Shown here in pieces: positions 16,408-57,495 of a DNA stretch of 64,000 nt. Origin of the DNA: Pseudofabraea citricarpa (Eukaryota; Ascomycota; Leotiomycetes; Helotiales; Dermateaceae); NCBI GenBank assembly GCA_029641185.1, contig JAPWGK010000005.1:2046001-2110000 (forward strand), written 5' to 3'. The notes below the pieces were generated by a model. The model was not told the origin of the DNA. It saw only the letters and a list, made by a program, of their open reading frames with translations, and did no database searches. How positions within the stretch are numbered: the first letter of the stretch is position 1; every line of letters starts with the position of its first letter. The position numbers and the translations under genes were made by a program.

Positions 16408-18543
16408 CTAATATTTAGGACCTGAGAAATAATCTTGCTTCATCCTCAAAGAACCCCTCTCATTGTATGCACTGAACTCCACGGTAATGTTAAGCATCTC
16501 TTCAACATGCTGTATTGTTACCCATGGATGGTCTTCATCACTTGCAGCCAAGCTTTCAGCCATCATAACCACATTTCTGATTTGCCGCCCATTCAACTTT
16601 TCTTGCGACCATTGAGGGATTTTTTTCAACAGCGAACTTTTGTGAGCTGCGAGCATATCCATACTTTCGATGAATCCCGACCAGATCTTCTCTCTGTTCT
16701 CTCTGCTAAGCCCAGGAAAATGGACTGAGCAACTTATTCGAGACTCAAAAGCATCATCAATACAATCGACCATATTCGTGGTTAGTATTATTAATCCTTT
16801 AAAGTACTCGAGCTTCCGTAAAAAAACTGAATTTTAAGTTAGGCTTGCCGTTGAACACAGATATTTGACTTACCAGAAATCCAAGCGTTTTGAGTTAATC
16901 TTTCGTATGTTCTTTTCTCAAGCACTATCTCAGCTTCATCTATAAGCAAAATAGCATTCCAGCTCTCTGCGTTGAAAAACACCGTCTCAATACATTGCTC
17001 CCATTTTCGATGATTTGCAATCTTTCCAAGATTGACTTTAAGCAACGGTCGTTGAGTAATTTCGGACAAGACCTCGGCAGTTAGCTGCTAATTATCAGCA
17101 ATATCCCATAAAATTTCCGGTGTCCTTACAGTCTTGCCGACACCAGGCGGCCCATAAAGTAGAAAGACAGTACCGATACCTTTGCCCTTCACGACATCTT
17201 GAGTCTTGGACATGCTAAGCGTAATTGAGTTGCTTTGTGCAAGCTTCCTTAATCTTTCTTTGTGAGATTGATCTAGCACTAATCTCTGAAAGATTTCTGG
17301 CCGCCAAACTTTCTTCTCAAGCATCGAGACAATGCCCATGTACCATTCATCATCCTCAGGACTGAACATGATTGTGGTTCTTGAACATATGATATAATCC
17401 TCATCAGAAAAGTCTACCACAACCCGATCGTTGTATGACTTGTGTGATCGCATTTTCGCTTTGTCGTCTATCCTTTTCCCACCAAGATCGCTAGCCACTT
17501 CGGTTTTTGCTGCTCCATCTGGATCAAATATAATGGTTGTGGATAGCTGTATCGTTAAATTTCATGAAATTACTCTAGGCTGTGTTACTGACCTTGAGTA
17601 GATTTAATCTTGGCCTGTTACTAAAATCAAACTTTGGAGAAAACGGCCCTTCCCTTGTATCCGGACATAGAATCGGTAAGGCAGGTCCATTGTAGCTCAT
17701 CACCTTTGGTGTTCCCAAATAAAGCTGACGATATTCTTTACCACATATTAGAGCCTCATGTTTCAGGGCATCGATGTTGCTGGAATTGGCTAAAGGGCAG
17801 ATTTCGAGATCTTGAATCCTTTTCAAGCCTTGGAAACGACGAATCGACACTGTTTCGGAATAATCAACAAAATCCATGCCACTCCAAACAATTCGCCCCG
17901 TTGCAATGTCCCAACCTGTAGACTTACGAACTCCCATGACTCTAACGGCTCTAATTCTTAGTAACTCGAGATGCCCAAGAACATTCTCCCGAACTGCAAG
18001 TTGTCCAGGTTTGAACAGTGCCCAAAGGTCATCATGAGTGATGAGTCCTTCAGCCATCTTTCGGTTTGCGTTCTGATATATTTTGGATGGCATGCCTTCT
18101 CGAGCAAAGTAAAGCAAGGCTTTCATGTCATTAATATCTTTTTGAGTAGCGCCAATATCTTTTTCGACGCTAAGCATCATTTCATCGACATGGTAATACA
18201 AAGGAACAAAGGGAGAATCAAGAAGTATCTTATTAGCTTGAACGACAATGCCATCATAATTCTCAATTTCGACAAACTCCCGAAATTTGGACTGCAGATA
18301 GGGAGACTGAACAGAAAGTACAACTCTCTTAAAGTTGTCTTTAGTTAATACGAGAGCTTTTGATTCAGCTGATTTATCATTTTCAAAAGTCTTCGCAGTC
18401 GTACGTGTTAATGTCCCTTTGGAATCTCGTATTCGAAAATGAAAGAATAACTCCCAATTCTCATTCGTACATATGATATCTTGCAAATTGGGAGTTTCTT
18501 CAGATAGACTCTCCTGATCTGAACTCGTGAAACTGGAGTCCAT
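16408..18543 (-). CDS. AAA+ ATPase with DUF7025-like N-terminal region
   Basis: Four exons (18543-17593, 17546-17130, 17084-16874, 16826-16408) encode 665 residues. The three introns are 45-47 nt. The C-terminal third is a classical AAA+ module: Walker A GPPGVGKT at residues 449-456, Walker B ILLIDEAE near 501-508, sensor-1 region LIILTTN, and arginine-finger region DDAFESRI. A lid region follows (SQEKLNGRQIRNVVMMAESL). The approximately 300-residue N-terminus matches the layout of the fungal DUF7025/AAA family from memory; no further motif is visible in it. These proteins are probably ATP-driven remodelling factors with no established substrate. The start is the first ATG (MDSSFTSS). The gene is divergent from a STAND-like gene 556 bp away. 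Confidence 0.88.
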
Positions 18544-19099
18544 CGATGCCACTTGAAATAGGTGAGTATGTTGCTAACTTGTTAAAAATGCGATCGCGGT
18601 AACTTTTGCCACAAAAAGGAAAGGATCAGTAGGGCAAAAGTTTGTTGAGTAGGGGAGAGGGAAATGCAGAATATAGGGAATGATTACAAGCTCATTCTAA
18701 GCAAGGCGATGAGGGATGCATTTATGTGTCTTGAGACCGACTGCAGCCTTGAATGGGCGCCAAAGAGACGATAGATACCCCGCAGTGCATGCGCTGTAAA
18801 TGTCCGACGGCAGTCTACGACTATCTAATGAATTTGGAGTTACCATGGTACAACGAAAAAAGTGAGGCTGTGAAGTCACATGGGTAGGTAGTCTCACCGA
18901 GAGAAGCTGAGCTCATTTGCTAGAAAAATTACGTTCCCTGTTGTGGAACTTGCGATCACGCTGAGCTTTCTAGATTGATGAACAGTGATCTAGATTTCAA
19001 GTCACATCAAACTTGCAATCTAGGTCTTTATATTGCTAATATAAAAGTGCTGAGATCAGGAAGAAATTTTCGCACTTAACAGTAGATTTGGGGGCCGTG
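18544..19099. promoter_or_regulatory. Bidirectional promoter region between the AAA+ and STAND-like genes
   Basis: The 556 bp between two divergent start codons must contain both promoters. No operator could be assigned by eye. Confidence 0.5.
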
Positions 19100-20967
19100 A
19101 TGGCACAAGAGACATTTTCAGTGGCAAAGGCCATTCTAAAAAGCAAAACAGCGAATCAACACGTCCAGCAGTATCAGTTGTAGGTGACCTCTGGTTCCAA
19201 ATTGCCTTTTCTCCCTCAGGACAAACAACTTATATATTCTACAGTACCTTGAAATTTATGGTTGATGCTTGTTCAAAAGCTGCTAGAGATCTCCAATATC
19301 TCGAAATTACTGGACATGAGCAAGAGGTATTAGATCGTACTCGAGATGTTGAAATTGCAGAAGTCTTTGTGTCTCAATACATCCAAGAGATAGAGAATCG
19401 GGGAAAGCAGAGTAGTCATTGGAAAACCGCCTACAATGTGTCAAGGGTTGCCAAGCCGATTGTAGAGATCTTCAAACAAGCGAACTTCTCGCCAGAATGC
19501 TCTTTGGCGCTCGGGCTGGTAGGGTTGTTCTTGATACAGGTATGTAGTTATAATTTAGGTATTGAGATAAAGCAAACTGACCTTATAACGAGCCGTTGCA
19601 CAACAAATCGGAAATCGAAGAGAGGCTAAGTGTGGAAACAGAGAAGCTGCACGAAGTGATTTCTCAGGTCAAATACACAAAGTCCAACTTGTCGTCTCCA
19701 GAAGTAGAAAATGAAGTACAGGGACTATGTGCAGCTATTGTAGACTTTCTTATCCATGCACTCAAGTACCAAAAAAAGTCTGGAATTGGCAAGTCGCTGT
19801 CTCTAAGAGCTGTATTAACACGGGCTGACCCCACATTTTAGTCAAGATACTTGGAGGAGTCATTAATGATTTTGAGCGAAGATTTCAGAGCTTTATAAAC
19901 AAGATAAAAAGCCACTCAATGAAGATTGATACTCTGGCCCAGCGATCTTGTACCACATTGATGCTCGATTCATTCAAAACTTTAGACAAGACCTCGTCGA
20001 GTAAGCAGACAAACAAACGATAATGTAACACAGCTGATTGTATGAAAGTATTAAAGCAACTCGATGAAGATTCGAGGGAACAAACAACATCGCTAAATTC
20101 TAGACTTACAAGATTCGAGATGAACTTGAGTTCTTGTCAGGAGTCTATTGAGAGTAAGTGCCGACGTAGCACTTATCCAGTTATTTTGTTGACCATTTCC
20201 GATTAGGTTATATCCGCTTTGGAGGTATCAAATATGTTCATGAACTCTCCGCCATATTTTTTGAGCATCCATTGAACCCTTTGAAGGAAAAGAAATTCGT
20301 AAGGGACCAAGAGAAAAAATTAGCGCCTAGAGAACGATGGGAAAACCACATCCCATTACTTAAATTTCCTGGGTGGCTGAAAGAAGACCCACGGTCGATG
20401 CTCTGGATTGGTGGTCGGCAGAATTTACGTTGCGTCTCATGGGTGTCTTCTTTTGTCGTCGACTTCATCGAAGCTCTGGATCTAGAACGAGGAACGGACG
20501 TCATTTACGTGCTTTGTCAAAATGGCGACCAAACAGAGATATCGCCGCTGATAATTTTCAAGAGAATCATCATACAGTTACTTACAGCTCAACCCGAGTT
20601 GTTGATAGCATCAGATATGCTGGGCAAAATTTCAGCACAGAGATTCAGCCAAGCAAATGATTCTGTTGAAGAAATCTTTGCTATTCTTGAAGATGTATTG
20701 TTTGGTTTTGAGAAACAGTGTTTGGAGCGAAGCCACGAGCTTTTTATCATAATAGACCGGGTCGACCTTGTTCACAAAGAAAGTTCATCACAGCTGAATA
20801 GATTTTTTAGAGCTTTGCACCAGCTTGGCACGAAATATTTATCGATACGGATTATGTTCACCAGTCAAGTACCACTGGCTGAGCTGGGAGAGTTTAGAGA
20901 AAAGTATGGCATCTCAGAGATTTGGGTGGATACTACCCGACCCTCCGCTATGTATTCTCGTCAATGA
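19100..20967 (+). CDS. DUF7708-type STAND/NLR-like protein, P-loop not canonical
   Basis: Six exons (19100-19179, 19245-19539, 19593-19788, 19842-20000, 20049-20153, 20207-20967) encode 531 residues. The N-terminal helical region (LALGLVGLFLI; later IVDFLIHALKY) resembles the DUF7708 domain found at the front of fungal STAND proteins. A coiled linker follows, then a nucleotide-binding-like core: MLWIGGRQNLRCVSW sits where a P-loop would be but lacks GKS/GKT, while ELFIIIDRVDLV resembles Walker B. The protein stops soon after the core, with no WD40, ankyrin or TPR repeats. Intron 3 must use a GC donor (GCAAGT) to keep frame. This is either a natural short family member or a truncated immune-type receptor. 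The multi-exon model is hand-built and exon edges could shift. Confidence 0.65.
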
Positions 20968-21184: not shown

Positions 21185-21939
21185 CTATATCAAACTATAT
21201 AGTGTGGCGAATGGGTCTAAACCTGGATCCGTATGGCGGTTATACTCCATCCTATCTGCGATGCCCTGTGAAATATCTCGACCATAAACAGCCTCTATCC
21301 ATGCGAAGGTAACATCAATACCAGCACTTATTCCCGAAGATGTCCAGACATTCTCATCGACCACCCAGCGTGCCTGAGGAACCCATTTCACTTCTGGACG
21401 AAGCGCAACGGTTGCTTCCCACGAGAGCTTGTTGGTTGTTGCACGCTTCGCATCTAAAACACCTGCACGCGCGGCAAGCCCAGATCCGGTACAGATCGTA
21501 ATTAGATATTGAAGTGTGGGAAAAGTTTGCTTGATATAATCAATAGCAGTGGTAACCCCTGCTGTGCGGGTTCCTTGGCCACCTGGGACAATAAGCACAT
21601 CTAGTGATGGTGCAGTCTTGAATGTGTGCGTCGGCACGACAGACTGTCCAAAGTCTGACCCAATTGGTTGTTTCGTGCCTCTCAACTTTGTCGACACAGG
21701 TTCTAGCGTTTCTGCTATTATATGAAGATTCATTTTGTAAGATCGAGCTAATATATTGAGCGCGTCTAGCGGACCAAAAACATCAAGTGCTTGGAAACCT
21801 GGGAAGAGGACAATCCCAAATTCGATGGGTTTGGCTGTTCTTGTAAATTAGAATTTGTTATTTCTGGATGGAAAATGTATTGTACGGCGTGGATAATTTC
21901 AGAAACTAACGGTTACTAACCAGTGGTAGAGTGAGACAT
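21185..21939 (-). CDS. DJ-1/PfpI family protein, isonitrile hydratase-like
   Basis: Exon 1 (21939-21921), an 86-nt intron and exon 2 (21834-21185) encode 222 residues. The fold is a class-I glutamine-amidotransferase-like sandwich. FGIVLFPGFQALDVFGPLDA carries the conserved Asp (D24), and the nucleophile elbow ITICTGSGLAARAGVL puts the catalytic cysteine at C121, followed by KRATTN. This matches the InhA-type isonitrile hydratase branch (isocyanide plus water to N-formyl compound) better than chaperone-type DJ-1. In fungi such a gene (XanA) sits in the A. fumigatus xanthocillin cluster (established knowledge). Two isocyanide synthase genes lie 6-10 kb away, so a role in isonitrile turnover or detoxification is likely. 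Substrate is unproven. Confidence 0.82.
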
Positions 21940-22422
21940 TCTTAGCTGCTGCCGAAATATTGAAGTCGATGAGTTACTATGCCTTGATGAAAATGCAATG
22001 ATTCGTTGTATCTTAATCATATTCCTCCTGTTTAAAGAGTAGGATCAGAAGTGGGGGTTGTAAGTATAGATGAGGAGGGGATTCGCAATATATACCTAAA
22101 TTTCGCGATATTTGCGGATGACTAATGGCAATCAAAATTAAACACACATCAGTTCCTAGTTTGAGCGCATCATACTAGTGTATAAAAAATCCAGGTATCT
22201 TACTTCAAAGCCCTATATAACTCAAGAAATAACGTAGAAGTATACAGCTTCAGCCGTCTACAAAGGTGAGGTAGATTTTCTTATTATTTGTGTAATAATC
22301 TACTGGAACCAATTTCCTCACGGAATTACTGGCTAGCAGTAGTAATATTACAAGTAGAAGACCTTTTGATCATTTGAGGAAAGACCAAGAGAGACACCTA
22401 GCTACTCATATTTGACTTGTAT
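21940..22422. other. Intergenic
   Basis: Upstream of the DJ-1/PfpI gene and downstream of the MFS gene, both on the minus strand. AT-rich; no gene seen. It should contain the DJ-1/PfpI promoter. Confidence 0.5.
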
Positions 22423-23783
22423 CTATCTCTCTCGCTTTAAAGCCGCTGCAGTATAGACTATGCAACCAGCTAACAGTGCAAACCCTCCGAATAGCTGCGA
22501 ATACAAATAATTTCCGTCATTGATTGCTATAAGTCTGCCCCCAATTGGAGGACCTGTGAAGGAAGAAATGCTGACAACGCCTAAAATCATGCCCACTTTT
22601 GTCCCGACTCGAGTTGGATCTGTACTAAGGGCACCGACAGCTGCAGGAAACAAACTCTGGGTGGCATTTGCAGCAATCCCGTAGATTACTGCCCATCCAT
22701 ACAAGCCAGTAGTAGAAGTGACACCAATCCATCCCAACAAGAGAACCCCAGTAATCCCGACAGCTGGTATCAAGGTATTTAATATTCCAAAATATTTGTC
22801 GGCAAGCATGGCCGGAATGACTCGTCCAAAAATCCCAACGCCATTCATAACAATGATTACAGTCAAGGACTGTTTCAAGGAGAAATTGAGTGTTACTCGT
22901 CCAAAAGTTCCAATCTATTTGTGTGAGTTGTGTGGATGAAAACGATGATCGTATATACTTACGTAGAAATACGCAAAATATATCCCCCAGAGAATAAGGA
23001 AGGATCCTATTGCAAACAAAGTGTATGGCAACTCCATAAATGCACGGAGGTCGAGGAGAGATCTGGCCTTTCTTGCTTTCACCCGAGTTTTGGTAAAAAT
23101 AATTATCATTGTTGCATTGAAAGCGATTACGAATCCCATGATCGTAACAGTCCATTGAAAGCCCAATCGGTCCATTGATGTGTAAGCTATAGTAGGAAAT
23201 ACCATGCCACCTGTTGCTGCTCCACAAGTTGCTATTGAGACAGCTAGCGCTCGGTTCTTCTTGAAATATGTTGGAAGAATAGAAACTATAGGTGCAAATA
23301 AAAAGCCATGCCCAAGTCCACTACAGACGCCCTGTGCAAGGAATATTTGCCAGTACTCCGTGGCTAGAGATGTCATAAATACGCCAAGAACCTGGAAAGT
23401 ACAGCCTATGATTAACGCATGCCTAAAATATCCCAGATCAACAGCGCGGCCAGAGAAAATACCAACGAAGTTCAACAGAAACATCTGCATAGACCCGATC
23501 CAAGAGATATCTGAAGCTGACTTATTCAACTGCTGTATATAGTACTGCTGAAAGAAACCAAACCTTGGGCACAATTAACTTTCCAATATCTGAGTGTTAG
23601 AAGCTTGTTTACATCAACTTACGAAGTTATGTAACCCCAGCTATTGAATATCACCAAATGACCCATAGCGACTTGTGTCCAAGCTACAAGACCGCCCTCT
23701 GGAATGCTTTCAGGATCGGACTCATCAATCTGCATTTCAAGCGTTTGCCTCAATGCTACCTCTTGAGTTGTTCCCTCACCCAT
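22423..23783 (-). CDS. MFS transporter, monocarboxylate (MCH/MCT) type
   Basis: Three exons (23783-23623, 23563-22963, 22914-22423; introns of 59 and 48 nt) encode 417 residues. A short cytosolic N-terminus rich in acidic residues leads into LVAWTQVAMGHLVIFNSWGY, the usual start of fungal MCT-family transporters, then FGFFQQYYIQQL and about 12 hydrophobic segments. A charged cytosolic loop (KTRVKARKARSL) lies in the middle. The second half includes MNGVGIFGRVIPAMLADKYFG. Family members move monocarboxylates or unknown metabolites across the plasma membrane, and many lie in secondary-metabolite clusters as exporters. Its place between the isonitrile hydratase-like gene and the isocyanide synthases makes it a candidate exporter. 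The substrate is inference. Confidence 0.85.
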
Positions 23784-25056
23784 TGTAAAGAAACTTATAG
23801 TTATGGCAGAAAGTCAAAGGTGTCCTGACAGGATATATGGATGAGGAAGAGATTATTTGCCAAGAAAGCATTGGAGTAAGTCAATGGGTGAACAAAAGAG
23901 AACTCGAAGTGATACTGGCGTGGCGTGCTATGGTGGATAGTGTCCCAAATTGATGATTGCCTTTACCGGAGGCGTTGGACGAAGACCAACTAATCCAAAG
24001 TTCTCCATTAGCCCGTGCTGGCAGTACTATCCACTTTTCATCTTCCCCGCCTGAAGGATGATTTTTGTACAATATGCCAAGGAATGAAGCAATTACCTTT
24101 CGCAGGGGGCGGCTAATCCCGTAGTTAAATCTAATAGCACTCACCGGAGCTAGGAAGAACTTCGTCTAAATTATTGCGGGTCGTCTGATGAACTACCCAC
24201 CCCCACCTTAGTATTCATCCTGTCCACAGTTTCCAAGTAGCGTATAGAACTCTCTGGGGGCCTTTGCCTCATACCTTGCACAGAGAACTTATTGTGGCAT
24301 CTGATAAACCAAGGTTCATTAACCTTGATATTCAAACTTGGGGTTAAGCAAGGTCAGTTTTTTATTTGTTTAGGTAAGTATCTGTTGATTTTGATATGAG
24401 TACCTATATTATGTATTATTTTACAATAACTAGAATATTACCATTCAACGTCTAGATTTCTATCTAAGTCAAGAAAAGCAAATGTATTATTTTGAAGCGT
24501 CTTTCATCACTTGTCTATAAGATACCTGACAATAATATCAGCACACTTAATATTTAGATTACTTATGAAATGGTCAAATTCTTCCCCAGGTACCTACACT
24601 TCTTAATTGAACTAAGAACTAAAAATAAAAATGTAGTCTATTTAATAAATTCCAACGAATACCTAGGCAGCATTTTATATACATATAAATACCTAAACTT
24701 GGCTTATGAATAGGTGCTAGCTTGAAATAAAAACCATTTAATTCTCTAAACCATTTTCAAGAGGATCCACAACCATCCCCACTTGAGTGCCGTAGGATCG
24801 GACTAATAGAAACCGAAGTGCATGATCATATTATCACGTCTTAATGCAGACAAAGACGAAAGAAAATCCTAGCTGAATCGGTATATGAAAAAAAAAGCCA
24901 ATTAGGCTCAAGAAAGAAATTTCTGCCCAGGACAAATTTCCAGTTAGAAATACGAGTATTTAGATAGATTGCTCATGGTAAATTTCTACAACAGATATTC
25001 GGCTTGAGTTGGTCCAGTGAAACCTCAACGCAGCCTTTTTGTTTGGGCCTCTAATT
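23784..25056. other. Intergenic, AT-rich
   Basis: A 1.27-kb spacer between the divergent MFS and amidase genes. Sequence near 24370-24760 is strongly AT-rich. An 87-codon minus-strand frame at 23881-24144 lacks a good start and has no recognisable motif. No supported gene. Confidence 0.55.
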
Positions 25057-27087
25057 ATGGCGATACAATCGATAATTTTGGCCATAGTCGCTATCATAGC
25101 GAGCTGCACCGAGATTCAGGCACTTGATGCCACTGGTTCAAGCACTACCATAGGTGGTGTCCATTATTGGATTCCTCCAGATTTAGTAGGAGTTATTAAC
25201 AGCACAATTATTACCCAAACACTCCATGATTACGCGTTAGATGCTGGAGGTCTTTTGCCTCTAACTATTATTCATGATACATTTGGTAATATTACTGCGG
25301 AGGGAATCTCTCAGACTTTTACGCGCTTCAAGGACTTGGACGATGTGTGGCAAGATGAGTTTTCAAAAGGTATGTGCACTGCGTATGATCCAAAAGCTCT
25401 TTTAATAAGAATGCATTATATTTAGTTAGCTATATTTTGTCGGAGGCTGGGGAACATCGTAGAAGTGAATACAACTTTACGTCGGGCCTACGAAATAGCC
25501 ACGTGTTGTTCGCCGAGTTTGAAAATAGAACTGATCATCAAATTCCCGAGGGCCCTTATATCTTTTCTTTGTTGGGGCTCCATCGCGTATATCGATTGTA
25601 CCCGGATCATCAAATGGCGTTCAGCGAGTCTATGTACACCAACACCAGTGGTCAGCATTCGGTTCTGCCTGCAAGCACACCGGGCCAATCTCTTGCCATA
25701 GCAGTTCCATCGCGTCTTTACTACAAGAAAACGCCCGAAAGCCCACTAGCAGGTATTCGTCTGGGGGTAAAGGATATATTTGACATATCATCAATAAAGA
25801 CTGGCAATGGGAATCGTGCATGGTATAATTTTTATCCCAATGCAAATTCGACTGCGTTACCAGTCCAAAAGCTCATTGACGCAGGAGCTATTGTAGTCGG
25901 TAAGATGAGAACCGCTCAATTTGCCAATGGAGAATATTCCAACTCAGACTGGATCGACTATCAATCCCCGTTCAATCCTCGTGGCGATGGATATCAAGAT
26001 CCAAACTTTTCATCAGCGGGACCAGGCGCTGGAATTGCATCTTATCCATGGTTGGATATTGCGCTAGGATCAGACACAGGCGGAAGTATTCGAGGACCTG
26101 CTCGAGTGCAGGGTCTTTATGCCCTTCGACCATCGCATGGACTGGTACCTCTGACCCATACTACACCCTTGGCTCCAGAGCTCGATACAGCCGCTCTTAT
26201 AGCACGAGATCCTTTACTGTTGCGAGATAGTGCGGTAGTGATGTACGGACAAAGCAGCCATACTTCAAAGCACTATCCTTGGAAAATACTAACTACAAAA
26301 CTTCCAGATAACCTAAGCATTGAAAGCATTGCAACCTTGAACAGATTCTTGGATGACTTGAAAGCTTTCCTGAGCATTCGAAATACCACCGAATTCGATA
26401 TCAATGCAGCATGGAAAAACTCTAAGCCTCAGACCGCAGCTGAAAGTTTGACTGTCTTGTTAAATATAACTTATCCAGTACTGATAGCTCAACGCCAGAC
26501 TGAATTAGTACGAGATCGCTTTTACGCCGACTATGCTAGAAACCACGATGGAAGACATCCTTTCATCAATCCAGTTCCGTTGGTACGCTGGGGCTACGGA
26601 GACAGCCTCCCTCGGACCTTCTCGGATGATGCAATAAAGAATAAAACTGTGTTTATGAATTGGTTTCAACAGCATGTACTCAGTCCAGACACGGAAGCAT
26701 GCTCTAATTCTATTCTTACCTACATATCTCCTCCGCTTGTTACGTATCGAAATACATACAGAAGCCCTCCAGTAATTCCATTCGGATTCACCACCGGATA
26801 CTGGAGTGTTATGAGTGAGACACCAGACTTAGTCATTACAGGTTTGTTTCCTTCTAACACAACGAGAATCTTCGCTCACTAATTTTGTTATCGCAGTTGG
26901 CCAAACAGCTTACCATTCAGACATAACAAATCACACAGAATATTTGCCAGTCACTATAAATCTGATGGCTGCAAAAGGATGTGATTCAATGCTCTTGAAC
27001 TTGGCTGTTGACTTGGTTGATGCTGGTATTTTGCATAATGTGAAAACAGGTGCTTCTGCCATAACCGGGGGCGAGATTTTATTGTAA
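25057..27087 (+). CDS. Secreted amidase-signature enzyme with Arp1-like N-terminus
   Basis: Three exons (25057-25369, 25426-26841, 26897-27087) encode 639 residues. [20 protein letters not shown] is a signal peptide. The next 90 residues resemble the Arp1-like N-terminal domain found on one group of fungal amidases. The amidase-signature fold follows: catalytic Lys in GVKDIF (about K220), cis-Ser in [11 protein letters not shown] (about S300), and nucleophile Ser in [14 protein letters not shown] (about S325). The C-terminus [17 protein letters not shown] is the usual end of the family. Several NxS/T sites fit secretion. It should hydrolyse an amide or ester, substrate unknown. Lying between the MFS and isocyanide synthase genes, it may tailor or release an isonitrile-derived product, but extracellular housekeeping use is equally possible. 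Confidence 0.88.
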
Positions 27088-27955
27088 AAGAGACGAAATG
27101 CATCTGAATAGATATTTAGACATGGGTTTATCAACAAATACCTTAATTGCTATCTGCCAAGAGGTTTACATGAATTTACCATGCTTGCTTATATAATGTG
27201 CTCTAGAGTGGAGAGTGGAAATGTTATGCGGATTGATGTCTTGGCTGCTGAAGAAACCTATCCATAATGCAGCATACTCTATATGGAGTTCCGGAATAGC
27301 CCGCACTTCCCGACCTTGGTACTGTCTTCCGCGCCATTAATAGAGTTTAGTCGTCATTTTTTTCATTGTGCTGGTATCCATGTTGTTGCATTAGCGAGCG
27401 CTATTGGTACGAGGTATGGGCGAGTTTCTTCGGTCCAACCCGCTCGAAGCGAGCAGCCAATCAAACCCTACTGTAAGCTGCTTGTTGCCAAGTCAAATAG
27501 AAAGTACGTGCAGTTATAATGTTTTGGGACTGAGACCGAGACGCTCCACTCAGATCACAAGACGACCTTTCACTTCTTTTTTTGTTCCGCTGGAACGCAT
27601 TAGTTCTATTGACATTTTCCCTTGGCACCCTATCCACCTATCCACCTCGCCTTCGTATGTCTACCAAATAAGAGTCATTAAAGAATTTGCGGGGACGATG
27701 GCAGTACGAAAGGGGCTCTTAGAGATTTAGATACTTTTTATCAGAGTAGATAAGTTAGAGAATATCTACAGTTATGATACATGGACTAGGAAACACTATT
27801 GCACTAATTTTGTTTATTCCTACGTTCATTTGGTGCATTGGATATAAGCGATATTCTTTTGAGAACCTAGAAGTATTGATATTGATGGGAAGTAAATAGT
27901 AGTCTGGCCTTGGGGAAATCACAAAGTAAAGCCTAGTAATGAGACTTAAAATTAC
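27088..27955. other. Convergent intergenic region
   Basis: Between the 3' ends of the amidase and the first isocyanide synthase. Short overlapping frames at 27283-27730 show no motif or splice logic. Nothing else seen. Confidence 0.55.
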
Positions 27956-29223
27956 TTAGATATCAAGAGCAAATCCACGGACTTGCACCCCACCAAAGAG
28001 CAATGCCAGGTCGGCGAGCTTCTGCTTCTCATCCTTGCTGAATATTTGGTGGCTCTCAGTTGCAGTGTTTACCACTACTACTTGACCACCATATTCATGG
28101 TAGATTTTGACGTGTGCTGGCCAAACGAAGACAAGATGTCTCTCGCGTAGACAATAGGGTTTTCCATCTTTCATGATAAGTTCATAGACATCTCTATCAC
28201 TGAAATCTCGCGAATATCCTGTGCGATACTGGCCTTTTGCGGTGACTATGACACAGGAATGCCAAGGCATGAGCCCGAAGGAAGCTGGTTGTGGAATCAA
28301 TGGCAGTGAGATTTTGGCTTTGCCCGTCGAAGAATGTATAGAAAGTCTGATAAAGCCGGCGTATTTAGCCTCCAGAGCCCTCTCATATGCCTTTCAGATG
28401 GTTAGAAATTAATATTGGAGAGAAGTTAAATCACTTACAAGTAATCTTTCAGTCATGCGTTTGGCAATTCTAGTGGTTTCTGCAGCATACAATTCAGCAT
28501 CCTGCTTGATTACCGGATTTAACTCAGGCCCCCAAAGTAGATCTTCCCTGGCAGATCTGACATACTTTTGATATGTCAAGCCAGTGTCCTTGTTCCTCTC
28601 AATTTCGTGATCAAGGTTGAACTCCGGGCCGAGGTATCTCGATTCCATTTGGACCCGGCAAGTCTCAGCCATTGCCAAGTAGTTTTCTTTTGTACTACCG
28701 TCTGCATCTCCTAAATCCAATACATCCATTAAGCGACGGAACTTGACGTGTAAGAATCCCTTTTGCTTGGCCATATCACGCAATTCTACTCCATAATCGT
28801 AAAAGTCTGCATCAGAGATCCCAAGAAGATCTGAAAGATGCAAGTCAGCCTCCGGAAGTTGCCATGGAATGGCCTGTGAACAATACCGTTGTAGACAGGG
28901 CCATCAGCAATGAGAGTAATGTTTCCTCCGCATTCGTAAACTTTTCCGATTTCCTTACAAAGGTGGTCTAGCCTCGCTAAGGCAAGCTCCTCGCCTAAAT
29001 CGGGATTGCTGCCAAGGACTTTGTCGGTATTCGGATTCTTCCAGGGAAAAGCTGGCAGTAGCATGGAGATTGGTTTTCGAGAAGCATGGAATCCCTTAAT
29101 CTTGGATACAATTGTTGCTTCATAGGTGGTGGTCTGAGTGGATGTTGTTTGGCCCTCATAGCAGGAGAACTGTCGGAAAATAGCCAAAATCCTGTCAATA
29201 TCTGGTTGGGTAATAATCTGCAT
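27956..29223 (-). CDS. Isocyanide (isonitrile) synthase, copy 1
   Basis: Three exons (29223-28887, 28830-28439, 28390-27956; introns of 56 and 48 nt) encode 387 residues of the pyoverdine/dityrosine biosynthesis family (PvcA, IsnA, yeast Dit1, XanB). Motifs in order: [30 protein letters not shown] [42 protein letters not shown], a helical middle, [23 protein letters not shown] and a C-terminal [13 protein letters not shown]. Characterised members turn the amino group of an amino acid into an isocyanide using ribulose-5-phosphate. The start is the first ATG; the N-terminus is shorter than copy 2 by about 80 residues, and an upstream exon is possible. Both intron positions match copy 2, showing duplication. 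No PvcB-like oxygenase is nearby. Confidence 0.9.
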
Positions 29224-30243
29224 GTTGTCCTTGTAACTGAAGATGATGCTTTCGATGGATCTCCTTCTATCATTCAGTTTTATTAAATGGCGGGTGTTGC
29301 ATTTATTATGATTCTCCGCATAAGTGTTGCGAATATATCATGCCGGCTGAAATCATATCCAGTTAAACTACGCACGATAGAACGGCATGGTTTTTTAGAG
29401 CCCCACAATTTGCTACAGGTAGTAACAACATTTTAAGTTCGACGTGCTATCTGCATAAAATAAAGCTGCAGCGATATCTTGGCAACAAGGACCTCGCTTC
29501 CAATCACACATGGATTGTTGGAAGAACTCCTGTTTACCCGTGAACATACCTGCAGACTAGTACCCACAGGAGATTGAAGCATATAAATGGGTCTGAAATA
29601 TACCGAGCACAATCTAACTGGGACTACTGAGTTCTGATAAGCCACCTACTTGTTGCATTCAATACGCCATTGATTATAAAACCTCTAGAACTTGAAACAA
29701 GCTTCTTAAATCAAGAAATTGGCACTAAGCGCAGTTCTAACCTCAGGGTAACTGACACTATACAACAGTTATTACCAAGAGATGCTAGTTCTTAGTTTGA
29801 CAGGGTTGTATTACTATAATAGTAATTGGAAGCAGAATGCAGAGCTTATCGACATATAGTACAGGGCTTTCAGAAGTCAGGTGGGCAGAGAAGCGCGCAA
29901 AACTGCCTAATCTAGTTCTGCTCTTATCGATGACCAGCAACGAGAACAATATTACGTGATAATATCCCCGCCACCTTCGTATAGCAATTTATGCGCTCGG
30001 TCTCATGGATTTTGGGATTGGATGCCGCATCTACCTGGCCTGATATGCATGATTCTAGGTTCCTCGAGCGCATAAAGAGACCACGTAACTAAGCAGCTAA
30101 AACCATCTAGCCACTCACTTATCACAGACTTTCCAAATTCTCTAGTAATTTTTGAGTGAAACGTCTCTATTTGTCTATATCTGATCTTGGGATCAGCTTA
30201 TTGTCTCGTCTGCTTTGTCCCTTTGTTTTTGTCCAGATTCTAA
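29224..30243. promoter_or_regulatory. Shared upstream region of the two isocyanide synthases
   Basis: About 1 kb between the two divergent synthase start codons. It must contain both promoters and is a natural place for co-regulation. An ACGTG core occurs near 29953. No further operator can be claimed by eye, and no gene is seen. Confidence 0.5.
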
Positions 30244-31735
30244 ATGGCTCCTTCAGCAACTGAAGACTACTCTGCTGGAACGGAAATTAGCTACCAGAAG
30301 AACGTTAAATTTTTGGAGCTAACCATAACCCACCAGAAAAAGCTGAAAGCTTTTGATGCCAATGAAAATAGCGAAAGTCAGAAATCATTCGAGGTTCAGG
30401 ATGTCCATGAAATCGACTGTGTTTTGGGTGGCCGAGGCAAAGTTGCGGTGGAAGAAACCCCTGGGATTGAAGAAAATGTTAGTGTAAAAAGAAAAGTCTC
30501 ACGATATGAGAAAACTGTTACGGATATCGTGGATATCATCGAAGCTTTTAGTTTACATCAAGCGGAGAGCAACTTTTTAGGGAGGGCAGTGTTCTCGCCT
30601 CGAATTAGGCGACATGTTGTTGAAGGGCGAAAAATTCCGATGGTACTTCCAGCATTTCCAGCCAAGAGCATAAACTGCCTTGACAAAGTCTTAGGACCAC
30701 TGCCGGACCTAGGAGAAGAATTAGCTCTAGACAGGCTAGATGATCTTTGCAGAAGGATTCAAAGCGTCTACGCGCCAGGTGCAACGGTATTAATTGCTAC
30801 CGATGGTGCTTGCTACAATGGTATGACGGACTACTCTGGCTATGAAGGAGTTGACTAACAGACATGAAAGATCTTACTGGGGTCACAGACAATAACCTTT
30901 GGGAATATGGCGTGAGGCTCCGTGAGATGGTTGCTGCTAAGGGATACACTTCAATAGAATTCGTACGTCTCATGAACCTTCTCGGATTATACACCGACTC
31001 GAAGATCACAAAAGAAATGTTTGTAAACCTCCTCGAACCATCAAGAAAGGAACTTGAAAGCAAGTATGGAGAGCCTGGCTTTGATGCTAAAGCCTGTATC
31101 AAAAATGATCCCGATTACAAGATGACTTATGATGGGTATGCCAAGTTCTTGAAGAAAGACCTAGCCCATGGCATCATCCGATCGTCTGTTACAAGCGGCA
31201 AGAAATATAAGGCGAAGGTTCATGAAACTGCAAAGGCAATGATCGCTAGAGGAGTGGTAAGACTAATTATTGCATTGAATTGTACACAGTGCTAACATGC
31301 ATCCCAAAGGCATTTTCGAAACTTATACTTGAGAAATATCCCGAGCATGTACGACTTTCAATACATCCATCTACTGGAAGAACTAAGATTTCCATGCCAT
31401 TGATTCCTTCGACTGGAACTTTCTCAATGACTCCATGGCATTCAGTGGTTGTCGTGGATATTTATGGCAATTTTAGAACGACACATGTTGCTGGGTTACG
31501 AAGTACACATGACCTCGTATACAAGAATGGTCATCCTTACTACTTCAGAGAACGTTCAAACCTGTTTCAATGGGAAGCTAAAGTGGAATTCGAGCATTTG
31601 TACGGCGGTGGTTTGGTTGTGCATAATGTTGGAGGAACAGAACAGACAAAGTTCTCTTTAAGCAATTCTGACAAGGAAAAGCTCGCGACGCTTGCTATCC
31701 TACAGCGCAATATTCACTTGAGGGGGTTTACGTAG
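30244..31735 (+). CDS. Isocyanide (isonitrile) synthase, copy 2
   Basis: Three exons (30244-30820, 30862-31256, 31310-31735; introns of 41 and 53 nt) encode 465 residues. About 90 extra residues precede the catalytic region. Family motifs are [81 protein letters not shown] and a C-terminal LATLAILQRNIHLRGF. Two copies aligned by eye are alike over the whole catalytic region but clearly diverged, so they may use different amino acids. Intron 1 splits the same codon (YN-D) and intron 2 falls before the same A-(Y/F) residue as in copy 1. No frame damage is seen, so both appear functional. Product and amino-acid substrate are unknown. Confidence 0.92.
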
Positions 31736-33461: not shown

Positions 33462-35370
33462 CTATGCATCTTGGTGCTCTACATGTGCTAAATCTCGGAT
33501 CTTTTTATCTAGGTCCTGATGGCCTTCTAGTACCCTACTACTTGCTCTGGCCTTGGTTTTGTCTCTTCGATGTAGGAATTGCCCAAGCGAAAATACTGCC
33601 CAGAAAGTACAGACGAAAATGGTGTTCACAGTATACCCCTTCCTCCATTTAGGCGCTATTAAAAATTAGAGCTATGAATAACAAGCGGCTCGATGTCAAC
33701 TTACCCTCAACTACGGGAAATACTGTAATGGGATAAAATGAGAAGAAAGCCCATCCCATAGTCATCTAATAAGGAGAACAGTCATTGGAATCATTTTAGA
33801 CTGCAGAGGAGATTTCAGAGGACTTACCATTGCACCTGTCGTGAATGCTCTTGCCTCTGCATCATCTTTCATCACAATGTTTACCCAAGGAAATAAGATC
33901 GGCGTTACAGCAGATGTCAAACCAAGCAGATAGTTTGCTGTGACTATAGTTCTCAATCAGCAGGGCCTTTCGAAAAAGAAAAAGAACAAGAAAAAAAAAC
34001 TGCGATGTACGGAACAAATCTTACAATGTAAACCCGTTGGAATATTCCAAACCAGCAAAACAATGTTACAGAACAGGAGAATAAATGATACGATTGAAAA
34101 TATGATCCACAAAGGATAGATCATACACAGAGAGGTAGCTAGAATTGCCGAGACTATTGCGACTGCTTGAACTCCTGTGGGTATAGTATTGATCTGAGCG
34201 ATAGTGTATGTTCCGTGCTTTTTTGCTTCATCCTTGAGCCAGAGCGCCATTTGTCCCGTTGGATAAGACGAACATTGAAAACTGGCAATTTCAGTCAATA
34301 CGAATCAAAAGTCTAGGAGAGGTTCTTACAAGACGTAGGCAAAAACCGCAACATAAAAATGCCACCTTGTAAAGACTCTCTTCAGCATCGCTTTCCCGAT
34401 CTTCTTACTCGGCTTGACCCCGTCATCGGCCATACGCTTTCTGGCCAACTCGTGCTCTCTATCTGTGAGATAGAACGGCTTTTTACTTGCTGGCAGTCCC
34501 GGGAATATGAAGAAACTTGCAAAAGCGATCGGCAAGCTAATGCAACCATCGATTATGAACAACCATCTCCACCCTGCCATTCCATGAACCCCGTTAAGGT
34601 TATTGTAGGCTGCTGCTTGTAGATAACCGCCAAACATGGAGCCTACGTTACTTGACACGTACCAAACACCACACCTCTTAAATAGTTCATCTGCCCGATA
34701 CCAAGATGAAAGTATGTAAAGAGATCCAGAAGAAGCTGGTGTTTCAAGAACTCCAAGGAGGAAGCGAATACCGTATATATCGCGCTCGTTACGGAGGCGA
34801 CATTGAAGGAAGGTTAGAACCGACCAACAGACTTCCATCGATGGTACATACCACCGAGTGAATTGGGGTCGAGAGAGAAGCATCATGGACGGGATTTCGA
34901 ATAAGAGGTATCCGAGGTTATAGAAAGTTCCAAATAAGGAATACCTAATTCCTGGTAAGCTAGTTTCTTGTACGGTATCTTGAATGCAGTACTAACTGAT
35001 TGCCGTTCAGTTTCAGATCTTCTCTCATTCCTGATACGTAAGCATTATTGATGTTGGATGAGTCAAGCCATTTCAAAAAGACTAATCTCGCTGTTAGAAC
35101 CCAAGTTATGCCTATATGAAATTCCATTTACTAACACATCAAGCAGCAAAATGGCATCAGTGTGTAATCAATTTTCTTGAGGAGTTTTCGTTCCTCGGCC
35201 GAGTAATGACTGGGGTACCAATCGAACATATACAGCCATGCTTTCCATAAAGACCTGACAGGTGGTTTTGTCGTGGTAGAGCTTGGAATGATCTCTTCAT
35301 CCTTGAGTGCTTCGGTTGTCCGAGCCTCAGCGATGGCCTTGTCAGCGGTTTCGTTCCTTGTGTCGGTCAT
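33462..35370 (-). CDS. MFS transporter, Dal5/Tna1-type anion:cation symporter
   Basis: Seven exons (35370-35136, 35081-34997, 34944-34330, 34281-34025, 33943-33828, 33765-33705, 33655-33462) encode 520 residues. An alternative ATG at 35424 would add 18 residues. Family features: [20 protein letters not shown] then [64 protein letters not shown] and [11 protein letters not shown]. About 12 membrane segments are visible. The group carries allantoate, nicotinate, and other organic anions, and bacterial relatives carry hexuronates. It is divergent from the GH88 gene (613 bp), which makes a uronate or unsaturated oligouronide a reasonable substrate guess. Confidence 0.88.
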
Positions 35371-35983
35371 TTTTGGATGACGGCCACTTCTTAAAAAGCT
35401 CGAAACTTGGCTGGTATGATTCATAATAAATCGCCCTGTGGGAGCAAGAGGCTACGTTAAGTAGATTTCGGATTAAGACATGCTGTTTTGTCGTGACTAT
35501 TCAACTGGCGATCAAAATCTGTTGAAGACTGGTCTCTACCACAAGGTTGTGATTACCCCACACTCAGTAGAGGTGGGGAAGAAAGCCGCGGATAAATTGC
35601 AGCGGTAAATGGACTACATTAGGGTGTGATCTGCATAAGTCAACTAGCTTCAATGTTCTGTCAAGAGTCAGCAGAGATAGTGAGGTTGCAGCTTCATGTG
35701 CTCTCTCGGACGGCGGGGTATTGGCAGCGGATATAGAGCCGAGCGGCATTTGACTTTGGTTTAGCGACAGCATTATCCTGTCTGGTTTGTTGTACATAGT
35801 ACATGAATGTGAATTTCCCCATTCGAGTATAGTGCCAAAGTCCTGCTCCAAGATATGGTGCAATTTTACATTTGCCATATTTAGGGCTTTAAAAATCTAG
35901 TCAATTTCATTCTCTGAGCACTACTTGCAATAGACACACAAAGTCATTCTAGAACAAGCAACTAGAAAATTTCCAGCAGAAAC
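35371..35983. promoter_or_regulatory. Divergent promoter, Dal5-type MFS and GH88
   Basis: The 613-bp spacer between two divergent genes. It contains a dense group of CGG triplets near 35706-35745, including the nonamer GGCGGGGTA at 35712-35720. The same nonamer lies at 40793-40801 in front of the Zn2Cys6/DUF2264 pair. Zn2Cys6 factors bind CGG triplets, so these are candidate sites, although its eight-base core also occurs elsewhere in the window by chance. Confidence 0.35.
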
Positions 35984-37560
35984 ATGGCGCAAGTACAAGT
36001 TCGGTATGGCCATGAAGAAATAGCTTCGGAAATCGAACTCATGCCCAAAATTATCAGTCCCAACCAGATTACGACAATACCTCCGGATTGCATAGTTTCT
36101 GTTACCACGACAGTGCCTGGGCGTTTCTTTACAGCGAAAGATGTTGAGCTTCAGGAACTTTTTGCAGAAAACATCTTTGCAAAAGTTTGGCGCACTGCGA
36201 ATCGAGATTTAGACATGAATGTAGGTAATATATTGCACTCCCCATACCATGTTTCCTGCTTAGGCTGAGACCAACGATCCATTAGAATATTAAAACAGCA
36301 TTTCCCGAGTACGTGCCCCAAGAAGGTGCGGATCGAGGCAAGTATGTTCTACGTGAAGCTCAGTTTTGGACTTGTGGATTTTTCCCAGGCACACTCTTTA
36401 CATTATTGGAACGAGTAATCAAATATCCAGAGGCTGTGGAATTGGGGCAAGGATCTAGTCCAGCATTCAAAGACCATCTTCTTGTTCTCTGTAGGGCATG
36501 GTCAAGTTCCCTTCATGATATGGCTACACGAACAGATACTCATGACCTGGGATTCATTGTTGAGCCTGCTCTGCGTCTTGATTGGGAAATTACAGGCAAC
36601 GGACAAAGCCTGCAATCTCTCATTAAAGCCGCGCATAGTCTCGCAAGTCGATACGATGCAAGAGTGAGAGCCATTCGCAGCTGGGACTTAATTAACAAGA
36701 AAGACGTCAAGATTGTTTCTATGGAGGAGAATTTCATCGTCATAATCGACAGCCTTTGCAATCTCAACCTTCTATTTTACGCTGACGCACATTCAAAGGA
36801 TCACACACTTCAAACCATTGCCAAAACACATGCTTTGACTTTACTGCGCACTCATCTTCGACCAGAATCACGGCACATGGCATCCAAGACTGGGTATCAG
36901 GGTCAGATCTTTTCAACGTGCCATGTTGCAAATCTCGATCCAAGAACGGGCTTCATCAAACGGCGCATGACAGCTCAAGGCTATTCCGATGACTCGACTT
37001 GGGCGCGTGGACAAGCATGGGCTATTTTAGGTTATGCACAAACCTATATGTGGACCAAAGAAGAAATGTTTCTTGAGGCAGCTTGTGGCCTGGTGGAATA
37101 TTTCCTGCAGAGACTAGGAGATGGCTGCAAGGTACCAGTCTGGGACTTTGATGCGCCTATTGAAGAGCCTGATAATCCAGTTCTGGATTCTTCCGCCGCT
37201 GCCATAGCTGCAAATGGGATGCTTTTGATTTCGGAAGCTTTATCTGCACTTCAAAACCCCGGACTAGCCGAAGGCTTTAGAGATGCAGCAATAGATATGG
37301 TGAAAGACCTTCTCACCTACTCACTTTCGGAAGAGAAAGCCAAATTCGAGATCAGTAATCATACCGGCGGATTAGAAGACAATGATAGATTGGCAGTAAA
37401 AGACGTGGAGGCTGGAAGATCTTTCGATGCTATTCTCAAAAATGCAACTGCCAACAATAACGTGGGTGCAAATCGCAGGTATCGAAACCATGGTCTAGTC
37501 TACGCAGATTACTACCTTGCTCAAATAGGCAACCAACTTTTAAGAATGGGATTAGTTTAA
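35984..37560 (+). CDS. GH88 unsaturated uronyl hydrolase
   Basis: Two exons (35984-36224, 36299-37560; 74-nt intron) encode 500 residues. The (alpha/alpha)6-barrel family motifs are present: FWTCGFFPGTLFTLLER, HDLGF (Asp about 163), IIDSLCNLNLLFYA (Asp about 230, the catalytic pair with D163 by family comparison), and GYSDDSTWARGQAWAILGYA. Known members remove the 4,5-unsaturated glucuronyl or galacturonyl residue from oligosaccharides made by polysaccharide lyases. No signal peptide is visible, so it should act in the cytosol on imported oligosaccharides, which fits the divergent transporter. The C-terminus has RRYRNHGLVYADYYL, typical of the family. Confidence 0.9.
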
Positions 37561-37722
37561 TGCGAGTAAATTGGTTTTCACTCATTTTACTTGTGTTCAA
37601 CCGGTTCTTTCAAGACCGAAAACGAGAAGTATCAAAGAGTGTTTATTCACTCAAGATGCCAATGGATTGATTGTAGCTACCGTAGAACCTAGATTATACA
37701 CCAAACAATAGATGTTCATCAT

Positions 37723-40670
37723 TCAACTGTCTTGATCCCACCAGTCCATGTTTGCAGTAAACATACCATCATCATAACTAATTACACGATCCATGTCGAA
37801 GAATTGTTGATCTAGGAACATTTGTGAAATGGAATTCAAGTCATCTATTGCGATGTCGTTGTCTGGGAGTACAGGAACCCCTGCGGGTACAACAAAGTCA
37901 TGAGGAATCTCGTTGGATATATATCCAGGTGTCAAATTGATCGCTGAAGATATATAATTGTCTTGGGTCTGTCCAGATGGACCACCTAAGCTTGGAGTTG
38001 AAAGTCCTGTGGGCAGAATACTGGCTTCGCGACTATTATCAGTCGTTTTTCTATTCAATTGACTGGTCCCCCAACCGGCAACGAGTTCCTCCCTCTGCTC
38101 CAAAGTGGTTGATGTCTCCTGAGCCTGAACTTGGCCTGGGTTTTGTTTCGTTCGTCGACGGACATTTCTGTTCGGCTGTGGCAGCTCTACTGTATGCTCA
38201 GTCATAGTGTTATATTGATCCATGGTAGAGTGCCTTAGACTGCCGAGACCAGTATTATCAAGTTCATTTGAGTACGCGAGAACGTCAATCCGAAACTCCG
38301 CTTCATTGATACATTTCTCGTGCATGTGGCGTAGCCGGCTTGCATACTTAGCTGACAGGCTCGCCTCTTCCTTATAATTTGTGCTCGAGCCACCTTCCCA
38401 GCGGCTAGAAAGAGATTCAAGACTACTGATAAGTGTGAAGAATTCGGGTAATGGAGCAGCGTCCCTATAATATTTCCAATGAACTACTAGATTATTAATA
38501 AATTTTAAATTAGAGGAGAGCGGATTCATTTCCAGATATCTTAGGGGGTAAATTACCTAGTAACACCCTAGCGGCGACAAAGACACAGAAAGTAAATTGC
38601 CCGTTGACTATTTTGCTATTTGTTGGACTTTTGAGGTACTTCTCAGTTATACTTGATGTCTCCACAGCAGCAACTTGACATGTGTCAGCGCTGCAGCGGC
38701 TTGGCAGTCGACTTGCCCAATCCCAATCTGTTGGTGGATATGCAATCAATTGATGTAAAAGTATCATGGAAGCATTATGGGTGATATGAGCGAGTGTCAG
38801 GTTAGGGTCCATCACAACCTCGGTTGGCTTTCGAGAAATGTTGGTGTCTTTCCATTTCTGGGGTAGAAACATTTTCCAACTTGCAGAAATATGTTAAAAA
38901 AGTCCAGTGCAGTTTTTGGTGCGGATATGTGTCAGGGCACTGGAAACTAAATTGCAAACACAATTCTAGAAGCAAATTTGAAAAAGAAGATTGGTGTGCT
39001 TACTGTACAAGACGGAGGTCTAACTCTTTAAATCGAGTCAACCACCTTCCAATTTGCTTTTGATCGTGCAAGTTGACCTTTTGTTGAAGAAAGTAAGTTG
39101 TAACACGGCTCATAGATTCTGTGGCTTCGATGGCATAAGCGAAAGCTCCAATGGAAGACATTTCCTCTGTCTGTGCGCTATTTCCAGGATCTGAACTCAT
39201 GGTCGGACTCTGGTGGTTTTCATCTGCTGGTAGGAATGTGATTGAGTTTCCTATCCTTCCTGCAGATTTGTCCCAGATTCCGAAGTACGGAGCAATGACT
39301 GGTTGTTGTTTGCGCCACAGTGCTCCATCTACGGGTAGACGTCTATGCACATCATCAGATGTGAGGCTGGTGTTCCATCTTTATACAATATTAGTACGAT
39401 CCATTTAATGATACTGAAAGTGTACCCAGTAATGACCGAGCAAAATCTGTATTGTGTGTCAATAAATTAATCGAGATATTTCTAGTGAAGTCCCAACTCA
39501 CCGATCCAAATTGAAAATGTTCCAGAATACTCTTCGTCTGGTTTCCATTTCGGTCCAATTTTTATGTGGAGGAAGAGAAGAACAAGGTTTGAGTAATGGC
39601 TGCTCGTCGTCTTCTTCAATCTCCACACTTAATTGCACATATTCCACCGTGCGAGTGAGAGATCCAACAATTGGCCAGGCTTTTACAACATCGCCTTTTC
39701 CGATCTGCGTAAATTAGAAATTTAACGAATTCCTTTGGCTTTCTCAACCTACATCATCAAAAGCAATGATTTGCAAAGCCTGTAAATTTTCGACTGAGAG
39801 TGAATTCATTGCATGTAACATCACCCAGTCTCTGCATCTTTTCGCTGAAAGAGCTTTCACATTAGATGTGGGCATTGAAGCTGTATTAACAAATCTCACA
39901 GCCGCAACAACCATAGCATACAGTATTACCTCAACCTTTTCCATGTAGACTTGCTCTGTGAACTGCTGTCTAAAATTTGCCTCATGCAAAATGGGAAGCC
40001 ATGGATGAACTTGTGAGAAATAATTGTCCAAAACGGCGTCAAGTAATTTTGCTGGAGACAAATTGAATTCTATACCAGGAGATTCCAGGTTGAATACAAG
40101 TTCACCCCAGTCAAAGTTTTCCGCTGAAGTCAATCGTTTCCGTTTTGCCGGAATACTAGAAAGATCTGGTGATCGGTTATCATCCTCTGTGTCCTCAATT
40201 GAAGCCCTTGACCTCTTAGACGAAGTATTTGCTTCATCATGGCCCATGGTTCTAAATTCTTTCATTTCTCTCTCGAACAAACTTAGGAGGTCAGATGCTG
40301 TTCGCGGACTAGGATTGCTGTCTCTCAGGGAAGTGCTTGACAAAGCTGTGTTGGTCTGTTGCTGTAACTGTTGTAGAAGCAGCTCAATCTTGTCTAAAAT
40401 ACTCTCAGCAACTAAATCTGGTCGTATCCTATTGTTACAACACTGATATATACTGACCCACTCTTCTATTTAAATTTTCTACTGCTCCAGATTTCAATCC
40501 TGGCTTTTCTTTCGCTTCATAAACGCACTCGGCGCCTGGTTTGCTCTTCATTAGTGGCGAAGAGTAAAATCTATGGAATAGTTCTCACTCAATCTCCTAC
40601 ACTCCTTGCATGATGGTAACTCTTTCGTGCAACCCAATTTCCGCCTCCGACACTCGGTGCAAGCAGGCAT
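37723..40670 (-). CDS. Zn2Cys6 transcription factor with fungal_trans domain
   Basis: Eight exons (40670-40589, 40535-40458, 40417-39753, 39704-39502, 39446-39426, 39378-39004, 38879-38557, 38486-37723) encode 836 residues. The DNA-binding cluster sits at the N-terminus: C4, C7, C14, C21, C24 and C31. Its last Cys is only in frame after splicing intron 1. [15 protein letters not shown] is the usual linker before the dimerising coiled coil ([11 protein letters not shown]). The middle is a fungal_trans region ([24 protein letters not shown]). Exon 5 is a 21-nt microexon. The C-terminus is acidic and Asn/Asp-rich, like an activation domain. It is divergent from the DUF2264 gene and next to GH88 and MFS genes, so it is the likely pathway regulator of this uronide cluster. 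Confidence 0.87.
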
Positions 40671-57318: not shown

Positions 57319-57495
57319 CAACAACAGAGGGGAGGGGGGGGTACTTACTTAAAAACACAGTGCCGTTCTGCCTCAGGCACACCATGCCATGCATCGAGAG
57401 AGCCTGACCACGACCACGTCACAGAAGCTCGAAGGGCATATAAGCAGGCTGTCTCGTCAACCCTTCAGTTTTCACGCATTCTGTACACCACCAAG
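57319..57495. promoter_or_regulatory. Short bidirectional promoter between two amidase genes
   Basis: Only 177 bp separate the divergent start codons, so the two amidases almost certainly share regulatory sequence. It contains a G-run near 57335-57341 and overlaps splice-like signals (GTAAGTACC on the minus strand), which leaves open a further 5' exon for the minus-strand gene. Confidence 0.6.

Follow-up and report, generated by a model that had tools for sequence, protein, structure and literature searches.

The question raised by positions 21185–31735 of a 64,000-nucleotide stretch of the Pseudofabraea citricarpa genome (the window) is whether the five genes found there work together in making an isocyanide, a reactive, metal-binding type of molecule. 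Two of these genes encode monodomain isocyanide synthases (ICS), designated ICS-A and ICS-B, while the others encode a DJ-1/PfpI protein, a major facilitator superfamily (MFS) transporter, and an amidase-signature enzyme. The favored answer, to which we assign a probability of about 0.7, is that these genes form an isocyanide cluster built around an old pair of monodomain synthases and probably belonging to the published gene cluster family (GCF) 1, that would make, convert, and export an isonitrile product; the cluster probably also protects against this product. This reading is based on the gene content, the retention of catalytic residues, the partial recurrence of the linkage in other fungi, and the age of the synthase pairing. 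A compact five-gene member with two apparently intact synthases provides a small, testable system in which to ask why the synthase pair has persisted for so long and what role is played by the amidase, which also lies beside ICS-B in Colletotrichum.

The synthase pair

The gene models were built by hand from the DNA sequence (Table 1). All five genes can be spliced with GT-AG introns, the introns and the best hits are of fungal character, and the family of each gene is confirmed by Pfam, bearing out the sequence-only reading of the window, which had placed five genes at these coordinates with the two synthases head to head. ICS-A and ICS-B are transcribed away from each other on either side of 1,020 bp. 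Against the PF05141 profile (cut-off 26.4 bits), ICS-B scores 277.5 bits and ICS-A 293.9 bits; profile positions 1–268 and 1–267 of 273 are covered, and no second family is matched in either protein. The structure search, for which ICS-B was used, returned PvcA (3e59) and tyrosine/tryptophan isonitrile synthases (9dhm, 9dh4) as solved matches.

The two synthases share 38% identity over 378 aligned positions. They were aligned with a paralogue from contig C15 of the same genome and with the 210 of 220 listed homologues that are at least 300 aa long, leaving out the 10 shorter ones. In the resulting alignment of 213 sequences, 44 columns are near-invariant (at least 93% one residue), and both ICS-A and ICS-B retain all 44. 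A reading of one synthase as a pseudoenzyme found no support in this alignment. The same retention argues against a heterodimer in which one synthase is degenerate and the other serves as the single catalytic subunit. Such an arrangement would fit the co-divergence of the paired paralogues described below, as well as six positions that are fixed differently in the A and B types, but it is considered highly unlikely.

The history of the pair was followed in an unrooted tree of 59 rows, made up of 56 hand-picked homologues together with ICS-A, ICS-B, and the paralogue from C15, with Shimodaira–Hasegawa-like approximate likelihood ratio test (SH-aLRT) values as the only measure of support. The A-type rows (12) and B-type rows (9) are split by a branch with a support of 100. 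The former lie within a 13-row group (support 100) and the latter within a 10-row group (support 98), each of which includes one unlabelled row. Penicillium and Talaromyces carry both types of synthase, each adjoining its respective group. The A-type and B-type distances are correlated across 12 genomes (r = 0.894; none of 5000 permutations was as high) and more weakly across the 8 genomes that remain once Penicillium and Talaromyces are set aside (r = 0.66; this value was reached in 14 of 5000 permutations), a correlation that shared species ancestry can also produce and that is no proof of joint function. As judged from these alignments and distances, ICS-A and ICS-B are an old, co-diverging pair forming two clades.

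Linkage in other fungi and within the genome

Linkage in other fungi was read from locus tags and equal contig sizes in protein-homologue tables for ICS-B, ICS-A, and the DJ-1 protein; each table lists its 120 top rows, out of totals of 160, 310, and 2947, and sharing was counted by eye. Among the listed rows, locus tags place two or three of the three genes no more than three genes apart in five other fungi. All three are found together in Lecanicillium saksenae (NLG97_g5213 for DJ-1, g5215 for B, and g5216 for A), where all have the same contig size, 16,362. Both synthases are neighbors in Fusarium decemcellulare (NM208_g5974 for B, g5975 for A) and Pestalotiopsis fici (PFICI_08075 for B, 08076 for A) and lie three genes apart in Penicillium brevicompactum (N7541_010673 for A, 010676 for B), and the DJ-1 gene adjoins the A-type synthase in Alternaria panax (G6011_00702 for DJ-1, 00703 for A). 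Equal contig size was used as a proxy for the same contig, which does not show closeness where contigs are megabases long; by this proxy, among the 25 A-type rows with an identity of 59% or more, 11 have the contig size of a B-type row (6 cases) or a DJ-1 row (7 cases) in the tables, 2 of them that of both. One further DJ-1 row and a B-type row share the contig size 44,596 (P0253, P0030).

Within the host genome (44 Mb in 43 contigs), at least 9 DJ-1 matches, at least 52 amidase loci, and at least 32 loci of the window MFS type were counted, the latter two after merging of matches. These counts are lower bounds, and the numbers expected within 10 kb of the synthase pair are 0.004 for DJ-1, 0.028 for the amidase, and 0.017 for the MFS type. 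The functional linkage of the five genes had previously been proposed from proximity, and it is now backed by the locus-tag neighbors and by Colletotrichum gene models that join an amidase to ICS-B. Linkage of the two synthases with the DJ-1 protein has good support, that of the amidase has fair support, and that of the MFS transporter has support from within this genome only.

Table 1. Genes and divergent intergenic regions of the candidate isocyanide cluster, numbered from the first letter of the window
Feature	Position	Strand	Details
DJ-1/PfpI protein, InhA-like (candidate isocyanide hydratase)	21185..21939	-	2 exons, 222 aa; PF01965 2.6e-16
MFS transporter	22423..23783	-	3 exons, 417 aa; PF07690 3.7e-26
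MFS/amidase divergent intergenic region, 1,273 bp, putative shared promoter	23784..25056	.	gene coordinates
Amidase-signature enzyme, signal-like N-terminus	25057..27087	+	3 exons, 639 aa; PF01425 8.8e-29
ICS-B, monodomain isocyanide synthase	27956..29223	-	3 exons, 387 aa; PF05141 1.6e-82
ICS-A/ICS-B divergent intergenic region, 1,020 bp, putative shared promoter	29224..30243	.	gene coordinates
ICS-A, monodomain isocyanide synthase, N-terminal extension	30244..31735	+	3 exons, 465 aa; PF05141 1.7e-87

The DJ-1/PfpI protein

Isocyanide hydratase activity of the DJ-1 protein is likely, as judged from its residues and family. The isocyanide hydratase InhA uses Cys101 as its nucleophile and also requires Asp17 (PMC10971408). 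Both proteins belong to the DJ-1 family and both have the catalytic residues in place: Asp24 and Cys121 of the window protein align with Asp17 and Cys101 of InhA in a match spanning residues 10–204, and Cys121 occupies the nucleophile position of an ICTGS elbow. The chain positions of InhA in this match are the published numbers plus 3 for both residues, which was taken to reflect a tag.

The family was also examined in an alignment of 127 rows, from which rows shorter than 200 aa (4 of the 120 listed) were left out, and in a tree that additionally lacks L022 (no proper frame) and most rows beyond P0285. The Asp is kept in 124 and the Cys in 126 of the 127 alignment rows; consequently, these residues are not diagnostic of hydratases. 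In the tree, the window protein falls in a 50-row group (support 97) with all six rows marked as linked and many rows of unknown context, and the seven DJ-1 paralogues from its own genome that are included fall apart from this group. InhA, which represents the characterized hydratases in this tree, forms a very long branch (4.37).

The amidase

The sequence-only reading had described a secreted amidase. The amidase assignment is confirmed by PF01425, which spans residues 192–379 with flanking stretches that have no Pfam match, and the suggestion of secretion comes from a strongly hydrophobic stretch of the first 20 residues. The catalytic triad of amidase-signature enzymes consists of Lys, cis-Ser, and Ser; Lys220, Ser300/Ser301, and Ser325 of the window amidase occupy these places when its sequence is compared with the GatA and biuret hydrolase motifs. 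No NCBIfam profile reached its cut-off against the amidase, ICS-B, or the DJ-1 protein. Among the weak solved-structure matches of the amidase is ClbL, the amidase of colibactin biosynthesis (8es6, 5.4e-07), indicating that amidase-signature enzymes can serve natural-product pathways.

Two Colletotrichum gene models (P0020 and P0052) fuse an amidase to a B-type synthase, with amidase parts whose identity to the window amidase is 61% over 282 aa and 66% over 407 aa. Neither model includes the end of its amidase or the beginning of ICS-B, and both are probably chimeric; they still place the amidase and ICS-B side by side on one strand.

Two more amidase-signature genes lie outside the cluster but within 30 kb of it, at approximately 55600–57000 (-) and 57300–59500 (+). 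A piece of the first, at about 56 kb, matches the cluster amidase in type, with 46% identity across 114 aa.

The MFS transporter

The sequence-only reading had called the transporter an MCT-type MFS protein. The MFS assignment stands (PF07690), whereas MCT-type is a label of that reading, as Pfam identifies the protein only as MFS_1. A simple hydropathy scan gives approximately 10 hydrophobic segments. Genes of the same kind are found about 1 kb from ICS genes on contigs C15 and C12, so that three of the four ICS loci of this genome have such a gene within 5 kb, an association with a chance probability of approximately 3e-6. Leaving out the window locus, where the association was first seen, two of three loci remain (2e-4 by chance).

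These observations bear on the possibility that the core is smaller and made up of just the synthase pair and the hydratase, the transporter being a passer-by or the amidase an unrelated secreted scavenging enzyme. Amidases are common in this genome, with at least 52 loci and the same-type fragment at about 56 kb, and the linkage read in other genomes covers the synthases and the DJ-1 protein. The joining of the amidase to ICS-B in the two Colletotrichum models and the similar MFS genes adjoining the ICS genes on C15 and C12 argue against a smaller core, which is considered unlikely.

Evidence against the five-gene reading

Several findings weigh against the five-gene reading or against parts of it. 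In the homologue tables, 14 of the 25 A-type rows match no listed B-type or DJ-1 row in contig size, and in Dactylonectria the A-type synthase and the DJ-1 protein are on contigs of equal size, with the B-type synthase on a contig of different size. The best solved match of the DJ-1 protein is 3mgk, a ThiJ-family protein of unstated function, at 124 bits, compared with only 66 bits for InhA, and the six linked DJ-1 rows do not form one clade (5 changes; 58 of 500 shuffles were as low). The amidase and ICS-B, on the same strand in Colletotrichum, are convergent in the window. Finally, the window transporter is closer to a paralogue on contig C28 (48% identity) than to the C15 (37%) and C12 (35%) proteins; because it has nearer paralogues away from ICS genes, the association of MFS and ICS genes looks repeated rather than copied.

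The upstream regions belong with these findings. The three upstream regions have no word of 9 or 10 bases in common. They share two 8-mers, an ordinary count that 60 of 200 random draws also reached. For Mac1-like copper motifs there is one site against 0.48 expected, and scans of the upstream regions for GATA, CreA, and zinc-cluster sites gave no result. With no distinctive common promoter word, co-regulation is without sequence support. The lack of a common motif would fit a chance neighborhood of unrelated genes. This explanation is made extremely unlikely by the low expected numbers (0.004–0.028 per gene) together with the partial linkage repeated in other fungi.

Comparison with known isocyanide clusters

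The xan cluster of Aspergillus fumigatus has a bZIP regulator. In this respect and others it differs from the five-gene cluster of the window, for which a cytochrome P450, a dioxygenase, a nonribosomal peptide synthetase, and a bZIP protein were looked for; none was seen in the six other open reading frames (ORFs) of at least 90 aa at 21–33 kb, which have no Pfam match, shorter exons not being searched. The earlier claim that P450, bZIP, nonribosomal peptide synthetase, and oxygenase genes are missing agrees with this result within the same bounds. The xan cluster encodes a hydratase homologue (XanA), an ICS-dioxygenase (XanB), a putative methyltransferase (XanE), and a Dit2 homologue (XanG) (PMC5974471). 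Both clusters thus pair a synthase with an InhA-like hydratase, whereas xan has one synthase, with a dioxygenase domain, and a P450 and methyltransferase that were not seen among the ORFs described above.

Clusters with two synthases have also been described. The 4G cluster of A. fumigatus contains two ICS genes, icsA and icsB, which were unexpressed under the conditions studied (Lim 2018, PMC5974471). It resembles the window cluster in having two ICS genes, and differs in that IcsB is an ICS-dioxygenase whereas both window synthases are monodomain. A figure legend in the same paper marks transporters, P450s, C6 factors, and ThiJ/PfpI hydratase homologues for three clusters jointly. In a survey of 3,800 ICS clusters, MFS genes were present in approximately 60% and isocyanide hydratases in 21.1% (Nickles 2023, PMC10153163). 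GCF 1 of that survey is listed as a monodomain family; its two synthases fall into separate clades, which the authors trace to an ancestral duplication, and its distribution is broad and discontinuous. ICS-A and ICS-B likewise are two monodomain synthases in one cluster that fall into two distinct clades; by the published description, the window cluster is probably a member of GCF 1.

The sequence-only reading had proposed an isocyanide cluster that combines a hydratase-like enzyme with two synthases in a perhaps undescribed layout. The first part holds, and the second is weakened by the two-ICS clusters already published in these two papers. The part not found described is the amidase as a partner in an ICS cluster: the word amidase is absent from the main texts of Lim 2018 (PMC5974471) and Nickles 2023 (PMC10153163), and a literature search that combined isocyanide synthases with amidases led only to work on atorvastatin.

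Proposed pathway

To our knowledge, no product has been assigned to the family with two monodomain synthases, although no search was aimed at products. For all substrates, the product, its export, self-protection, secretion, and the amidase step, we infer the following scheme. ICS-A and ICS-B would each convert an amino acid to an isonitrile using the amine nitrogen of the amino acid and a carbon from ribulose-5-phosphate. Since both synthases look intact and have diverged in parallel, it is most likely that they differ in their amino-acid substrates or that each supplies one half of a single product. Isonitrile hydratases yield N-formamides, and the DJ-1 protein would accordingly add water to the isonitrile to form an N-formamide, which would serve either self-protection or maturation of the product. 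Export would fall to the MFS protein. The secreted amidase would then cut an amide bond of the product, possibly that of the N-formamide itself to give an amine and formate; N-substituted formamide deformylases exist, and the known enzyme belongs to a superfamily other than the amidase signature.

In a more specific version, the genes would form a conserved cassette with the isonitrile as an intermediate: two synthases of different specificity would supply it, the DJ-1 protein would convert it to an N-formamide, and the co-inherited secreted amidase would take off the formyl group, or a different acyl group, outside the cell. This make-and-convert sequence is judged rather improbable; if true, it would make amidase-signature enzymes a new kind of isocyanide synthase partner.

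In a different outcome, the pathway would end in an N-formyl amino-acid derivative, as yeast dityrosine formation does, with the hydratase acting biosynthetically and the amidase trimming or coupling at the cell surface. Lim 2018 proposes that N-formyl groups come from XanA and names N-formyl tyrosine as what yeast Dit1 makes (PMC5974471), and the signal-like N-terminus of the amidase would be consistent with a role at the surface. On the other hand, the cluster showed no Dit2-like P450 among ORFs of at least 90 aa, and an ICS–P450 pair is found elsewhere in the genome, on contig C9. An N-formyl end product is considered rather unlikely, and the cluster that makes, converts, and exports an isonitrile product is preferred.

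Other synthase loci and neighboring genes

Three further ICS loci are present in the genome. The locus on C15 (628–634.5 kb; L001, L009, L010) encodes an ICS-TauD fusion in a 708-codon frame. An MFS gene lies about 1 kb from it, a FAD-binding oxidoreductase gene adjoins it, and the fusion groups with XanB-type proteins in the ICS tree. The fourth ICS locus, on C12 (1218–1226 kb; L012), has an MFS gene and a FAD-dependent hydroxylase-like gene; a TauD match trails the ICS exons, so this is probably an ICS-TauD protein like that of C15. On C9 (872–877.5 kb; L015), an ICS gene lies beside a cytochrome P450 gene, resembling the dit1/dit2 pair.

Within the window, a fungal transcription factor match is located about 8 kb past ICS-A among catabolic-looking genes. 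This PF04082 transcription factor (39.7–40.5 kb), a second MFS gene (34 kb), and a DUF2264 gene (41–43 kb) were considered as cluster members and rejected by judgement. Together with a GH88 match below the cut-off at 36–37.6 kb (E 0.022), the stretch 33900–43400 looks like a separate catabolic neighborhood. On the other side, just past the DJ-1 gene, positions 17578–20964 hold gene pieces, one matching DUF7025 (-) and another matching NPHP3_N, a NACHT-like domain (+). Farther along, a 1,035-codon open frame at 50350–53454 (-) carries GH43, laminin-G-like, and bacterial Ig-like (aBig_2) domains.

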